Assembly (NCBI RefSeq): GCF_000186705.1
Contig: NZ_AEUE01000006.1
Coordinates: 186,001-250,000, forward strand
Length of the DNA: 64,000 bases
Direction: 5' to 3'
DNA from: Citromicrobium sp. JLT1363
GTDB taxonomy: Bacteria > Pseudomonadota > Alphaproteobacteria > Sphingomonadales > Sphingomonadaceae
Shown here: positions 14,215-17,305 of the stretch, in pieces
How the letters are laid out: each line of letters opens with the position of its first letter
Position numbering within the stretch: position 1 is the stretch's first letter
Translations under genes and position numbers: made by a program
Notes under the pieces: generated by a model
Databases searched by the model: none
Seen by the model: the letters and a program-made list of their open reading frames with translations, nothing else
Told to the model about the DNA's origin: nothing

Positions 14215-14283
14215 ATGTCAGGTACTATTGACATAGACAGCGAATCGCGACATATAGTCATGCATACCTGACATGGTGTCAGG
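14215..14283 (+). promoter_or_regulatory. Sigma-70 promoter with TGTCAGG operator repeats
   Basis: TTGACA (14228-14233) is followed by a 17-bp spacer and CATATA (14251-14256), or 19 bp to TATAGT (14253-14258); this is the best -35/-10 pair in the window. Around it are ATGTCAGGTA (14215-14224), its exact reverse complement TACCTGACAT (14265-14274), and the tight palindrome CCTGACA-TGG-TGTCAGG (14267-14283), which would lie near the transcription start. The layout suggests a repressor, plausibly the XRE protein encoded 500 bp downstream (inference). Confidence 0.7.
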
Positions 14284-14303
14284 ATGTAGCGACGGAGGTA
14301 GCA

Positions 14304-14414
14304 GTGAAGAAGAGCTTCTGGTGCACCGGTGAGATGAGCCGCGACGAAAAGGTCGCGTTCTGGATTTCCATCGCGACGGTCCTGATCGCGTCGCTCACCG
14401 TAATCGTGAACTAA
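14304..14414 (+). CDS. Single-helix micro-protein 1
   Basis: 36 codons from GTG at 14304, with a GGAGGT ribosome site at 14294-14299. The N-terminal part is polar (KKSFWCTGEMSRDEK) and is followed by one membrane helix (VAFWISIATVLIASLTVIV). There is no recognised family. It is the first gene behind the promoter at 14228-14258 and the first of four similar-sized one-helix proteins. The strong ribosome site and codon content argue that it is real. Confidence 0.6.
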   Translation: MKKSFWCTGEMSRDEKVAFWISIATVLIASLTVIVN

Positions 14415-14436
14415 GCAAGAGAGGGAAGGACAAGCC

Positions 14437-14559
14437 ATGACCATCGAACTCAACAAGCAGACCATCGGCCGAACCGTCCTTGCGACCGGGCTGCTGTTTT
14501 TCGCCGGATACGGCGTCGGCAATATCGCCGCGAAAATCGTGATGCTGATCGGCGGATGA
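14437..14559 (+). CDS. Single-helix micro-protein 2
   Basis: 40 residues from ATG at 14437, preceded by the purine-rich site GAGGGAAGGA (14421-14430). A short polar N-terminus (MTIELNKQTIGR) leads into one hydrophobic helix (TVLATGLLFFAGYGVGNIAA). The stop TGA overlaps the ATG of the next micro-gene (ATGA), showing an operon-like arrangement. No family is recognised. Confidence 0.6.
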   Translation: MTIELNKQTIGRTVLATGLLFFAGYGVGNIAAKIVMLIGG

Positions 14560-14651
14560 GTACCGCGCCCGGCAGCCGCTCCCTTGCCTGGACGATGATC
14601 GCGCTGGCGTTCCTCATGTCGATCCTGGCCATCATCATCAGCACGAGGTGA
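14556..14651 (+). CDS. Single-helix micro-protein 3
   Basis: 31 residues, starting inside the stop of micro-protein 2 (ATGA overlap). It consists of a short polar head (MSTAPGSRS) and one membrane helix (LAWTMIALAFLMSILAIIIS) ending in TR. No family is recognised. Support comes from the overlap arrangement and from the same head-plus-helix design as its neighbours. Confidence 0.5.
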   Translation: MSTAPGSRSLAWTMIALAFLMSILAIIISTR

Positions 14652-14655
14652 ACCA

Positions 14656-14769
14656 ATGACCGCAACCGAAAGAAAAGACGACCAGCCCCGCGAGGCAGAT
14701 CGCAGCAGCGACGACATGATGGTGTTCTGGCTGCTCATGTTCGCCATGGTCGTGCTGGCGTGGGCCTAG
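14656..14769 (+). CDS. Single-helix micro-protein 4
   Basis: 37 residues from ATG at 14656, with GAGGTG about 6 bp upstream. The charged N-terminal half (TERKDDQPREADRSSDD) is followed by one C-terminal membrane helix (MMVFWLLMFAMVVLAWA) ending at the stop. No family is recognised. The XRE regulator begins 10 bp downstream. Confidence 0.55.
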   Translation: MTATERKDDQPREADRSSDDMMVFWLLMFAMVVLAWA

Positions 14770-14779
14770 GCGGCATCAC

Positions 14780-14974
14780 ATGAAGAACCGCCTCAAAGTC
14801 CTGCGCGCCGAACGCGACTGGAGCCAGGCCGAACTGGCCGGGCGACTCGACGTCTCGCGCCAGGCGGTCAACGCCATCGAGACCGGCAAGCACGACCCCT
14901 CGCTGGGCCTCGCATTCAAGATCGCTCGCCTGTTCGACACGCCGATAGAGGAGATTTTCGATGACGCAGAATGA
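14780..14974 (+). CDS. Cro/CI-type (XRE) transcriptional regulator
   Basis: A 64-residue minimal helix-turn-helix protein, almost entirely HTH_3 domain (about residues 4-58). The recognition region is WSQAELAGRLDVSRQAVNAI, followed by the family ending FDTPIEEIF. It has no sensor domain. It overlaps the next gene, a membrane protein, by 14 bp; this pairing of a tiny XRE regulator with a small membrane protein is common and the two are presumably co-expressed. The palindromes at 14215-14283 are its most likely operators (inference). Confidence 0.88.
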   Translation: MKNRLKVLRAERDWSQAELAGRLDVSRQAVNAIETGKHDPSLGLAFKIARLFDTPIEEIFDDAE

Positions 14975-15386
14975 CGGGAATCTTTCGGGCGAACAGCGGC
15001 TGAAGGCGCGTCGCCGCCGTTTCTTCCGCTACCTTGCCATCGCATTTGTGGTCAGCATGGTTGTCGGCATCCTGAGCGGTGGGGTGGCCGCATTCTACGA
15101 GGACGGCACCGTCCCGCTCTGGATACCCTTGGTGGTGTGCGTTGCAGCTGCCCTGGCATTCGCCTGGTTCACCTACGACTATTTCAGGCGGGTCGACGAA
15201 CTGGACCTGATGGACAACCTATGGGCTCATCTGATCGGTTTCTACGGCGGCCTCACCGTGTTCGGCGTGTGGTACTTCCTCGCCGAGCTTGACCTTGCGG
15301 CAAAGCCGAGCGCCGTTGCCACCGTCGCCATCATGGTTGCCCTGACCTTCGTCGCCTACGGCCTGCGCAAACTCGGCCTGCGATGA
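14961..15386 (+). CDS. Four-helix membrane protein paired with XRE regulator
   Basis: 141 residues. A basic N-terminal stretch (KARRRR) is followed by four predicted membrane helices, at about residues 24-48, 54-78, 88-108 and 116-136, with the signature FTYDYFRRVDELD between helices 2 and 3. The start overlaps the XRE gene by 14 bp. No named domain is recognised. Its regulator-membrane pairing resembles two-gene modules in which the membrane protein modulates or is controlled by the regulator. The last gene of the micro-protein cluster. Confidence 0.8.
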   Translation: MTQNDGNLSGEQRLKARRRRFFRYLAIAFVVSMVVGILSGGVAAFYEDGTVPLWIPLVVCVAAALAFAWFTYDYFRRVDELDLMDNLWAHLIGFYGGLTVFGVWYFLAELDLAAKPSAVATVAIMVALTFVAYGLRKLGLR

Positions 15387-15458: not shown

Positions 15459-16406
15459 ATGCATTTCCACCGCAAATCGAAGTTTCTCGCCAGCGCCTGC
15501 GCTGCATTCGCCATCGCCGCGACCACGGTGGGCTGCGCCCCGGCGCAGACGATGTCGACGCCCGTCGCTTCGACGCAGGCTCCGGCAAGTTCTGTCGGCA
15601 TCGAGGGCCCGGCACTGTGGCGCGTCGCCGACGAAGACACCACGATCTACGTCTTCGGCACGGTTCATGCCCTGCCCGACGATGTGAACTGGTATTCCGG
15701 CACCGTGAAGAACGCGCTCGATTCCAGCGACACGCTGGTGACCGAGATCGACATGACCCCGGCTGCCGAGGCGGAAACGGCCGCGCTGTTCCAGCGCACC
15801 GCCACCCTTCCCGCAGGCACGACCCTGCGCAGCCTGCTGACGGAGGAACAGCGCACCGATTACGAGGCGCTGCTGACCGAGTTCGGCATGCCGGTCAACG
15901 CGCTCGACACCGTGGAGCCCTGGGGCGCCGCGCTGGCGCTGTCGCAGATCGCATTCGCCAGGGCGGGGATCGACGGCGAGAACGGCACGGAGAAGGTGCT
16001 GGAAGAAAAGATCGGCGACCGGCTGGGCCGCGATGCGCTGGAGACGGCGGCATTCCAGCTGGAGATCTTCGACGGCCTGCCGCAGGATGCGCAGATCGAC
16101 TATCTGATGGAGACCGTGACGGAGATCGACACGGTCGTGCCCATGCTCAACCAGATCATCGCGGAATGGGCGGAAGGCGACGTCGACGATCTGGGCGCGC
16201 TGCTGAACGAAGCGCTGGAGGCCGACCCGGTTCTCGCCGATCGCATGCTCTATTCGCGGAACAAGACGTGGGCGGGCTGGATCGACGAGCGGCTCGATAG
16301 CCCGGGCACGATCTTCATGGCGGTTGGCGCAGGGCACCTGGCAGGCAACCGGTCGGTACAGGATTATCTCGCCGAGCGCGGGATCAGCATGACCCGCGTA
16401 CAGTGA
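15459..16406 (+). CDS. TraB/GumN family lipoprotein (copy 1)
   Basis: 315 residues. The N-terminal signal ends in a lipobox-like TTVGC (Cys about 26), so it is probably lipid-anchored in the periplasm. The TraB/GumN hallmark is the GTVHALP segment (about 67-73), with a second conserved segment AVGAGHLAG near the C-terminus. The TraB fold is related to metal-dependent hydrolases of the erythromycin-esterase/Tiki group; the function in these bacteria is unknown. It is directly followed by a paralogue, the two stop/start regions nearly touching. Confidence 0.87.
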   Translation: MHFHRKSKFLASACAAFAIAATTVGCAPAQTMSTPVASTQAPASSVGIEGPALWRVADEDTTIYVFGTVHALPDDVNWYSGTVKNALDSSDTLVTEIDMTPAAEAETAALFQRTATLPAGTTLRSLLTEEQRTDYEALLTEFGMPVNALDTVEPWGAALALSQIAFARAGIDGENGTEKVLEEKIGDRLGRDALETAAFQLEIFDGLPQDAQIDYLMETVTEIDTVVPMLNQIIAEWAEGDVDDLGALLNEALEADPVLADRMLYSRNKTWAGWIDERLDSPGTIFMAVGAGHLAGNRSVQDYLAERGISMTRVQ

Positions 16407-16411
16407 CGACC

Positions 16412-17305
16412 ATGAACCTGTTCCGATCCGCCCTTCTCGCACTGCTCGCCTGTCTGGTCGCCGCCTGTGCCCAGCCCGACGAGCGCGAGACGGGCGGGCC
16501 GGACGCCCCGAACCCCCTGCTGTGGGAAGTCGCGCGGTCGGACGGATCGGTCGAAGGATGGCTGATGGGCACGATCCACGCGCTTCCCGACGGGGCCCGA
16601 TGGCGCAATGGAGCGATCGACCGCGCCGTCGCCGATGCCGATATTCTCGTCATGGAGATCGACGATCTGGACGATCGCAAGGCCATGGCAGCCGCTTTCC
16701 AGCCGCTCGCCTTTTCCGATGGGCAGCCGCCGCTTGCCGCGCGCGTACGCCCGGAACAGCGCGAGCAGCTGGCCGATCTTGTCGGGCAAACCTCCTACGA
16801 TCTTGACGACTTCGCCCGGATCGAAAGCTGGAGCGCGGCGCTGATCCTGGCACAGGCGATCGAAACCGATGCGGACGCGCGCAATGGCGTGGACCGTGCG
16901 CTGGTCGAGGATTTCTCGGGGCGCCCGACCATGGAGATCGAGGGCGCGCGAGAGCAGTTCGCGGTGTTCGACGGATTGTCGGAGAGCGCGCAACGCGCCC
17001 TGCTCGCCGCCATCGTCGAGGATTCGCGCAAGGACGAGGCGGAACGCATGGAACCGATCACGCTGTACCTCACCGGCGATGTCGACGGGCTGGAGCGCCT
17101 GTCGCGCGAAGGCATGCTGGCGATACCCGAAGTCCGCGAGGCACTGCTCACGAAACGCAACGCGCGGTGGACACCGCGGATCGAGCGCCTGCTGGCGCGC
17201 GAGGAGCGCCCTCTGATCGCGGTGGGCGCTGCGCACATGGTGGGCGATGACGGGCTGGTCGCCCTGCTCGAAGCGGAAGGCTATCGCGTCACGCGCGTGC
17301 AATAG
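16412..17305 (+). CDS. TraB/GumN family lipoprotein (copy 2)
   Basis: 297 residues from ATG at 16412, six bases after the stop of copy 1; a GTG at 16403 overlapping that stop is an alternative start. Signal peptide and lipobox LVAAC (Cys about 16-17). It has the TraB motifs GTIHALP (about 52-58) and AVGAAHMVG (C-terminal). It is clearly paralogous to the preceding gene but diverged, so the pair looks like an old tandem duplication. Confidence 0.86.
   Translation: MNLFRSALLALLACLVAACAQPDERETGGPDAPNPLLWEVARSDGSVEGWLMGTIHALPDGARWRNGAIDRAVADADILVMEIDDLDDRKAMAAAFQPLAFSDGQPPLAARVRPEQREQLADLVGQTSYDLDDFARIESWSAALILAQAIETDADARNGVDRALVEDFSGRPTMEIEGAREQFAVFDGLSESAQRALLAAIVEDSRKDEAERMEPITLYLTGDVDGLERLSREGMLAIPEVREALLTKRNARWTPRIERLLAREERPLIAVGAAHMVGDDGLVALLEAEGYRVTRVQ

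Follow-up and report, generated by a model that had tools for sequence, protein, structure and literature searches.

Between positions 14215 and 15386 of a 64,000-nucleotide (nt) stretch of Citromicrobium sp. JLT1363 (contig NZ_AEUE01000006.1, positions 186001-250000, or G000:C21 in a 3.1-Mb assembly; the whole stretch is hereafter the window), a chain of four short open reading frames (micro-ORFs) lies between a promoter and the gene for a small XRE regulator, which is followed by the gene for a four-helix membrane protein (the partner). We favour, at a probability of roughly 0.55, the reading that this is an XRE-autorepressed membrane operon of the Sphingomonadaceae, with a membrane partner and an exchangeable cargo of small membrane proteins. 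Across related loci, the constant chassis consists of a promoter with an operator array, the 64-amino-acid (aa) XRE, a multi-helix membrane protein and a neighbouring TraB/GumN gene. The anatomy of the operon, the conservation of its operators, the co-occurrence of its parts and the homology of micro-protein 2 (micro2) are established, as is, more weakly, the homology of micro-protein 1 (micro1). A search of open-licence papers found no description of this operon.

Operator array and XRE regulator

The promoter (14228-14258, + strand) has a perfect -35 element, TTGACA, at 14228-14233. The original prediction called this promoter near-consensus, a description that is true of the -35 only, since a strict sigma-70 scan did not list it and the best candidate -10, TATAGT at 14253-14258, lies behind a spacer of 19 base pairs (bp); an alternative -10, CATATA at 14251-14256, has a 17-bp spacer and is a poor match. 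The operator palindromes noted at the same time are present in the window as three GTCA-N8-TGAC sites of 16 bp each. O1 (14217-14232) is an exact palindrome that overlaps the -35, O2 (14257-14272) is an exact palindrome that covers the -10 and the probable +1, and O3 (14278-14293) is a palindrome with one mismatch. We regard these sites as repressor-like, because a protein bound over the -35 and the -10/+1 would obstruct polymerase.

Related loci were sought with a 33-base promoter-operator pattern, allowing at most 3 mismatches, in 397 sampled Sphingomonadaceae genomes. The pattern occurred in 80 of the 397, at one site per genome, and the reversed control gave no site. A stricter 44-base pattern, run over the class, was found in 2 of 289 genomes, both from the window's family, which had four members in that sample. 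In its own genome the O1 pattern occurs once exactly and at one further site with two mismatches, and the single exact site points to a local regulator. The loci compared below number 86, namely the 80 chosen by the pattern and six named additions (L047, L048, L050, L052, L053 and L054). Loci that hold XRE and a partner though they fall outside the 86, because they missed the pattern, were cut or are duplicates, include L010, L017, L019, L024, L049, L055, L056 and L058; a divergent operator is present in L010 and L056. L140 shares its genome with L051 and is not counted in the 86, though it remains among 70 fetched loci, which hold 2.8-3.5 kilobases (kb) after the operator and were searched with tblastn for XRE and TraB/GumN.

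Among the 86 loci, the O1 position (11 bases before the start of TTGACA) holds an exact site in 69, the O2 position (29 bases after that start, and 40 bp from O1) does so in 61, and both hold a site with at most one mismatch in every locus. The O3 position (+50) is exact in 19 of the loci and within one mismatch in 41, and an extra palindrome at +8, absent in the window, occurs in its one-mismatch form in 60; operator sites are spaced about 20 bp apart. Shuffled segments gave 0.12 exact and 3.6 near sites per set of 86, compared with 149 and 276 observed. The selecting pattern, by which 80 of the 86 loci were chosen, includes the right half of O1 and the left half of O2, so that operator conservation is partly built in; we therefore counted the other halves separately. 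The left half of O1, which lies outside the pattern, was exact in 63 of the 80 loci and the right half of O2 in 69, and each was within one mismatch in all 80.

The XRE gene (14780-14974, + strand) encodes 64 aa, barely more than a DNA-binding domain: Pfam HTH_3 matches residues 5-59 with an E value of 2.7e-16 and 59.8 bits, against a cut-off of 23. All 86 loci have it downstream of the operator, and it was matched by tblastn in 70 of the 70 fetched loci and in 26 of the 30 loci that hold 1.5 kb on each side. The preceding gene overlaps it by 4 nt in 38 of the 71 loci having such a gene, a close spacing of the kind that our gene caller favours. A gene-order search in relatives had been proposed as a check, and the synteny with XRE held in other genera.

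Two paralogues of this XRE occur in the same genome, one in L002 (G000:C26:122510-122692; 72% identical) and one in L003 (G000:C23:75598-75783; 58% identical), and each adjoins membrane-protein genes. Compared with the partner family by HHalign, the L003 membrane protein reached 94% and the L002 protein 59%; the former seems to hold two copies of a D-E-L motif.

Variable cargo between operator and XRE

The four micro-ORFs, of 36, 40, 31 and 37 codons with one hydrophobic helix each, are present as first described, as are the XRE gene and the gene of its four-helix partner with their 14-bp overlap. Micro1 (14304-14414; 36 aa) has a GTG start with GGAGG upstream, and a basic N-terminal side followed by one helix. 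Micro2 (14437-14559; 40 aa) carries a conserved AGYGxGN motif; micro-protein 3 (micro3; 14556-14651; 31 aa), with one helix, overlaps micro2 through ATGA; and micro-protein 4 (micro4; 14656-14769; 37 aa) has a charged head and then one helix. All four lie on the + strand. We counted sense micro-ORFs of 28-75 aa with a hydrophobic 17-mer in 3000 sequences simulated from this 476-bp stretch with an order-1 Markov model: 2917 sequences gave none, 83 gave one, and a chain of more than one appeared in 0 of 3000. When 476-bp stretches of the window were taken from both strands at a step of 50, chains of at least three micro-ORFs occurred only at this locus. The GC content at third codon positions (GC3) is 0.86, 0.78, 0.91 and 0.84 in micro1 to micro4, and resembles that of the neighbouring XRE gene, four-helix gene and two TraB genes (0.82, 0.78, 0.85 and 0.81). 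No known RNA element from Rfam was matched at the locus at E values up to 0.1.

The closest comparison comes from the nearest relative (G201; L036, the same as L044), in which the same operator is followed by micro2 and a 128-aa four-helix gene, then by XRE and by a partner of 92% identity. Micro1, micro3 and micro4 are missing there, and the 128-aa gene replaces micro3 and micro4. The four micro-proteins had been put forward as one conserved module, which does not hold, as this relative keeps micro2 only. Of the proposed regulated membrane module, the membrane operon and its regulator-like sites stand, within the Erythrobacteraceae sphere; the four-micro set as its constant unit does not. We conclude that the idea was only partly right, because the chassis is conserved but the micro-protein set is the cargo of one species.

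Genes in the 86 loci were called with a home-made caller whose scoring favours closely spaced genes and hydrophobic helices; some of its calls are spurious, and its counts are approximate. No cargo was called in 15 loci; 35 have a one-helix micro-protein, 45 have between one and six four-helix genes and 21 have UrcA, the classes overlapping. That 15 loci lack cargo indicates that it is dispensable. At least two micro-proteins were called in three of the 86 (L006, L106 and L142), and four in the window alone; L048 and L127 have two short ORFs each, one of them below the helix threshold. One cargo UrcA protein that was tested matched TIGR04433 (E 1.5e-20), a family with no match among seven window proteins. 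The largest operon seen, in L103 (G218:C1:726600-730300), has UrcA and six four-helix genes between operator and XRE. In L152 (G326:C18:22900-26600), two tandem UrcA genes stand at the operon head, and an apparent decayed XRE gene, read by eye, lies after this pair and before the intact XRE.

Sequence comparison identifies micro2 as a conserved family that is under purifying selection. The alignment that carries the AGYGxGN motif has 19 rows, two of them doubtful, and its profile found 20 of 298 genomes at E values of at most 2.1e-6; many of the 20 are themselves rows of the profile, and G294, G041 and G166 are not. The operator is present in 20 of the 20 micro2 loci (22-33 of 33 positions), as is XRE (in 19 by pattern and in the twentieth, L182, by reading). 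Nine weaker places had only 16-19 operator positions, no XRE by pattern, and frames of at least 193 aa. The ratio of non-synonymous (dN) to synonymous (dS) substitution rates for micro2 is below 1 in six of six pairs within the genus. Between the window and L065, the 40 codons differ by 24 synonymous and 24 non-synonymous changes, and the synonymous sites are saturated.

Relatives of the micro-proteins were tested by pairwise comparison, in 36 comparisons with a shuffle p (floor 1/301) and 74 background ORFs. Micro1 has relatives in L052 (Aurantiacibacter odishensis) and L155, with z scores of 6.8 and 7.0, a shuffle p at the floor and none of the 74 background ORFs scoring as high. Both are first genes of the same operon type, with a cysteine in common. 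Counted from the first base of TTGACA, micro1 starts 76 nt further on, and the first called gene starts at 76-78 in 26 of the 86 loci. Over the 25 codons of the core shared with L052, dN is 0.56 and dS 0.88, which is weak evidence of constraint. Among 298 genomes the micro1 profile was credible at its own locus alone, the other 29 places having E values of 0.0035-0.092 and many lying within long frames or crossing stops; the L052 and L155 genomes, which are rows of that profile, are apparently outside the 298-genome sample. Both micro1 and micro4 have four basic residues before the helix and none after it, which suggests that the N-terminus is inside. The counts before and after the helix are 2 and 1 in micro2 and 1 and 1 in micro3, and give no clear sign of orientation.

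For micro3, the pairwise comparisons gave no convincing relative: the best match covers 15 residues at z 4.0, a level reached by 1 of 74 background ORFs, and the next two have z 3.4 and 3.3. Micro4 gave two doubtful matches, L098 (z 2.6 at a score of 39, with a shuffle p of 0.02 and 0 of 74 background ORFs as high) and L014 (z 3.1, 3 of 74 as high), and in 198 other genomes only three matches, at E values of 0.02-0.1 and inside long frames. We would not count any of these micro3 and micro4 matches as homology.

The alternative that survives best, although we judge it unlikely, is that micro3, micro4 and perhaps micro1 are chance ORFs or leftovers of a lost four-helix gene, and that only micro2, XRE and the four-helix protein matter. 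It draws on the marginal matches of micro3 and micro4, on the micro1 profile being credible at its own locus alone, and on the four-helix gene that the nearest relative has at exactly this place. The tiling and coupling of all four micro-ORFs, their hydrophobic helices and coding-like GC3, and the relatives of micro1 in the same position, argue against it. Moreover, micro1 to micro4 score like shuffled copies when compared with 140 four-helix proteins (p 0.73, 0.20, 0.31 and 0.49), and no frame of 14556-14779 matches those 140 proteins beyond shuffled copies; remnants of a four-helix gene in any frame thus have no sequence support from this comparison for micro3 and micro4. A 45-aa micro-ORF in L145 (G374:C1:1738700-1742450) does match (p 0.01, the floor) and aligns to both ends of a four-helix cargo protein, so that it looks like a four-helix gene after an in-frame internal deletion. 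This ORF speaks for the leftover explanation to the extent that micro-proteins may arise by deletion, but the four in the window show no such origin.

The membrane partner and a model of control

The partner gene (14961-15386, + strand) encodes 141 aa. An AlphaFold2 model (mean pLDDT 79) predicts helices at residues 10-47, 54-81, 85-109 and 118-137 and places a DExDxxDNLW motif at the junction of helices 2 and 3. In alignments of 21 and 16 family proteins, many of them shared, D79, E80, D82 and D85-W88 of this loop are invariant. Lysine and arginine counts along the successive segments are 7, 0, 2, 1 and 3, from which the loop is predicted to be cytoplasmic. The nearest named record, from Citromicrobium sp. 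UBA3494, is 92% identical to the partner protein. No Pfam or NCBIfam family matched the partner above its cut-off and no PHROGs family matched at E values up to 0.01. There was likewise no match on plasmids and no relative on viral contigs, and a mobile or viral origin of the partner is unsupported.

At least one multi-helix gene is in the called chain of 86 of 86 loci, upstream or downstream of XRE. The four-helix cargo upstream falls into two main clusters, of 55 and 14 members, and four singletons, and the partners into one cluster of 66 and two singletons. HHalign related the 55-member and 14-member clusters to the partner cluster at 90.5% and 95.4%, with the acidic pair aligned, although such scores between membrane families can be inflated by composition. 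One cargo member, with helices predicted at 3-30, 34-52, 59-94 and 102-127, has a DEY motif with an invariant D58 at the same helix junction as the partner motif.

XRE regulators commonly act as repressors. From this usual behaviour and the operator positions, we infer that XRE binds the operators and represses the operon; the same model proposes control by the membrane partner and a role in adjusting the envelope. Most likely, XRE occupies O1 at the -35 and O2 at the -10/+1 as dimers, aided by further sites, and bound XRE would repress the whole operon, its own gene included. As the partner is co-encoded and small, and has a conserved acidic loop predicted to be cytoplasmic, it is the best candidate, by analogy with LytTR regulatory systems, for the signal input to XRE. 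Through its DExDxxDNLW loop, the co-made partner most likely retains or frees XRE, depending on the condition of the inner membrane. On derepression, the genes between operator and XRE would be made as exchangeable membrane effectors, here the four one-helix micro-proteins and elsewhere four-helix paralogues or UrcA, which would insert in the membrane or adjust it. The use of UrcA as cargo hints at an envelope or metal stress signal.

More tentatively, the operon may be a plug-in device for membrane surveillance, with a fixed chassis of promoter, repressor and sensor that keeps one chromosomal place in much of the Sphingomonadaceae and a cargo swapped between species, in which the sensor and many of the effectors come from one four-helix family and an occasional micro-protein is a shortened form.

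Several observations weigh against an XRE-autorepressed operon with a membrane partner. XRE could be an activator instead. At the threshold used, the operator pattern is missing in 317 of the 397 family genomes; the partner is missing in 2 of 10 genus genomes and, at the threshold of its own search, in 170 of 199 family genomes. No gene was called between operator and XRE in 15 of the 86 loci, and in the called chains of L107, L109 and L128 TraB comes right after XRE and the sole multi-helix gene is upstream, so that a downstream partner is not strictly required. A fold search with the partner model found no match among solved structures (best E 0.67) or viral structures (0.84), and the composition effect on HHalign scores between membrane families must be counted here too.

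If the reading is right, the sphingomonads have in common a membrane control system, so far undescribed and confined to one locus, whose operator is strikingly conserved and whose small-protein cargo changes fast; this would offer a testable case of an XRE repressor governed from the membrane. It would also add a one-helix protein family short enough for gene finders to skip, and a natural series of loci, with anything from no cargo to six four-helix genes upstream, for studying the role and the origin of micro-proteins.

Directly downstream of the operon lie two tandem TraB/PrgY/GumN genes (15459-17305; Pfam PF01963, E 1e-70 and 1.3e-54), the first of which (15459-16406, + strand) encodes a protein with a lipoprotein-like N-terminus, its lipobox read by eye. 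A TraB/GumN match was obtained by tblastn in 70 of the 70 fetched loci, and TraB/GumN, which was outside the set originally proposed, is a constant neighbour of the operon. Upstream, on the opposite strand, is glyQ, which lies within 1.5 kb in 25 of the 30 loci that hold 1.5 kb on each side.

It is improbable that the genes form a toxin-like set, in which a failure of XRE repression would let the micro-proteins depolarise the membrane, with the four-helix protein as the protector. Repressed short peptides with one helix would be similar in size to type I toxins, and the cargo turns over rapidly between species. However, the cargo is missing in 15 of the 86 loci, no plasmid or viral-contig copy of the partner was found, and PADLOC, run on eight proteins, gave only helix-turn-helix matches, for XRE. 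The NCBIfam antitoxin models scored XRE far under their cut-offs (Y4mF 37.4 bits against 71.65, HipB 22.4 against 79, HigA 20.8 against 47.7), and no toxin family exceeded its cut-off among seven proteins scanned with Pfam and NCBIfam.

We regard it as very improbable that the micro-proteins serve a respiratory or transport complex as accessory subunits. Such complexes commonly contain one-helix subunits of about 30-40 aa, but there is no respiratory or transport gene among the six operon genes or the glyQ and TraB neighbours, and Pfam transporter matches were all below cut-off. Least probable is peptide signalling, with the micro-proteins as precursors of extracellular peptides that TraB/GumN degrades or shields and XRE as the controlled repressor, for although the constant TraB/GumN neighbour, here in two copies, and a parallel to PrgY/PrgX in passages on Enterococcus (PMC7117660) speak for it, a 64-aa XRE leaves no room for a peptide-binding domain and 51 of the 86 loci lack a micro-protein yet keep TraB.

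Comparison with known systems

Membership of a known defence system is unsupported, the PADLOC matches being to helix-turn-helix models only. By sequence, the operon does not appear to belong to the type II toxin-antitoxin systems represented by the HipB, HigA and Y4mF models. In pairs of the DUF2178 kind, a small XRE adjoins a small protein that has several helices and an acidic motif behind the second; DUF2178 was not among the Pfam matches of the partner, taken up to E 1, nor among those of six further multi-helix proteins, taken up to E 0.1.

Caulobacter urcA is described, in passages of PMC8963506, as responsive to uranium, zinc and copper, with a periplasmic product whose function is unknown, and as driven by the two-component system UzcRS. 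UrcA heads the cargo in part of our loci (21 of 86) and is missing from the window's operon, and the UzcRS motif, as quoted in those passages, differs from the operator here.

In Enterococcus, according to passages of PMC7117660, the TraB homologue PrgY probably degrades pheromone made by the cell itself, and the PrgX repressor binds two operators, one of them over the promoter. The operon resembles PrgX/PrgY of pCF10, as presented there, in having two operators with one over the promoter, a TraB/PrgY protein nearby and short hydrophobic peptides. It differs in that PrgX is peptide-binding and plasmid-borne, whereas the XRE here is near-minimal and its gene lies on long contigs, beside glyQ and TraB.

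The arrangement of the operon also resembles that of the LytTR regulatory systems, such as HdrRM and BrsRM of Streptococcus mutans, which passages of PMC6193735 describe as widespread and mostly unstudied and in which the membrane protein inhibits the regulator. As in those systems, a soluble DNA-binding regulator is followed by a membrane protein in a small operon, with repeats at its own promoter. Unlike them, the regulator here is HTH_3, with no LytTR among the 14 families listed for XRE. The LytTR repeats of that source are direct and lie upstream of the -35, whereas here inverted repeats lie over the -35 and the -10/+1, and a variable cargo separates promoter and regulator, in contrast to the systems described there. 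We conclude that the operon appears to work like an autoregulated system of a regulator and its membrane partner, yet departs from LytTR systems in two features tested, the regulator family and the type of repeat.

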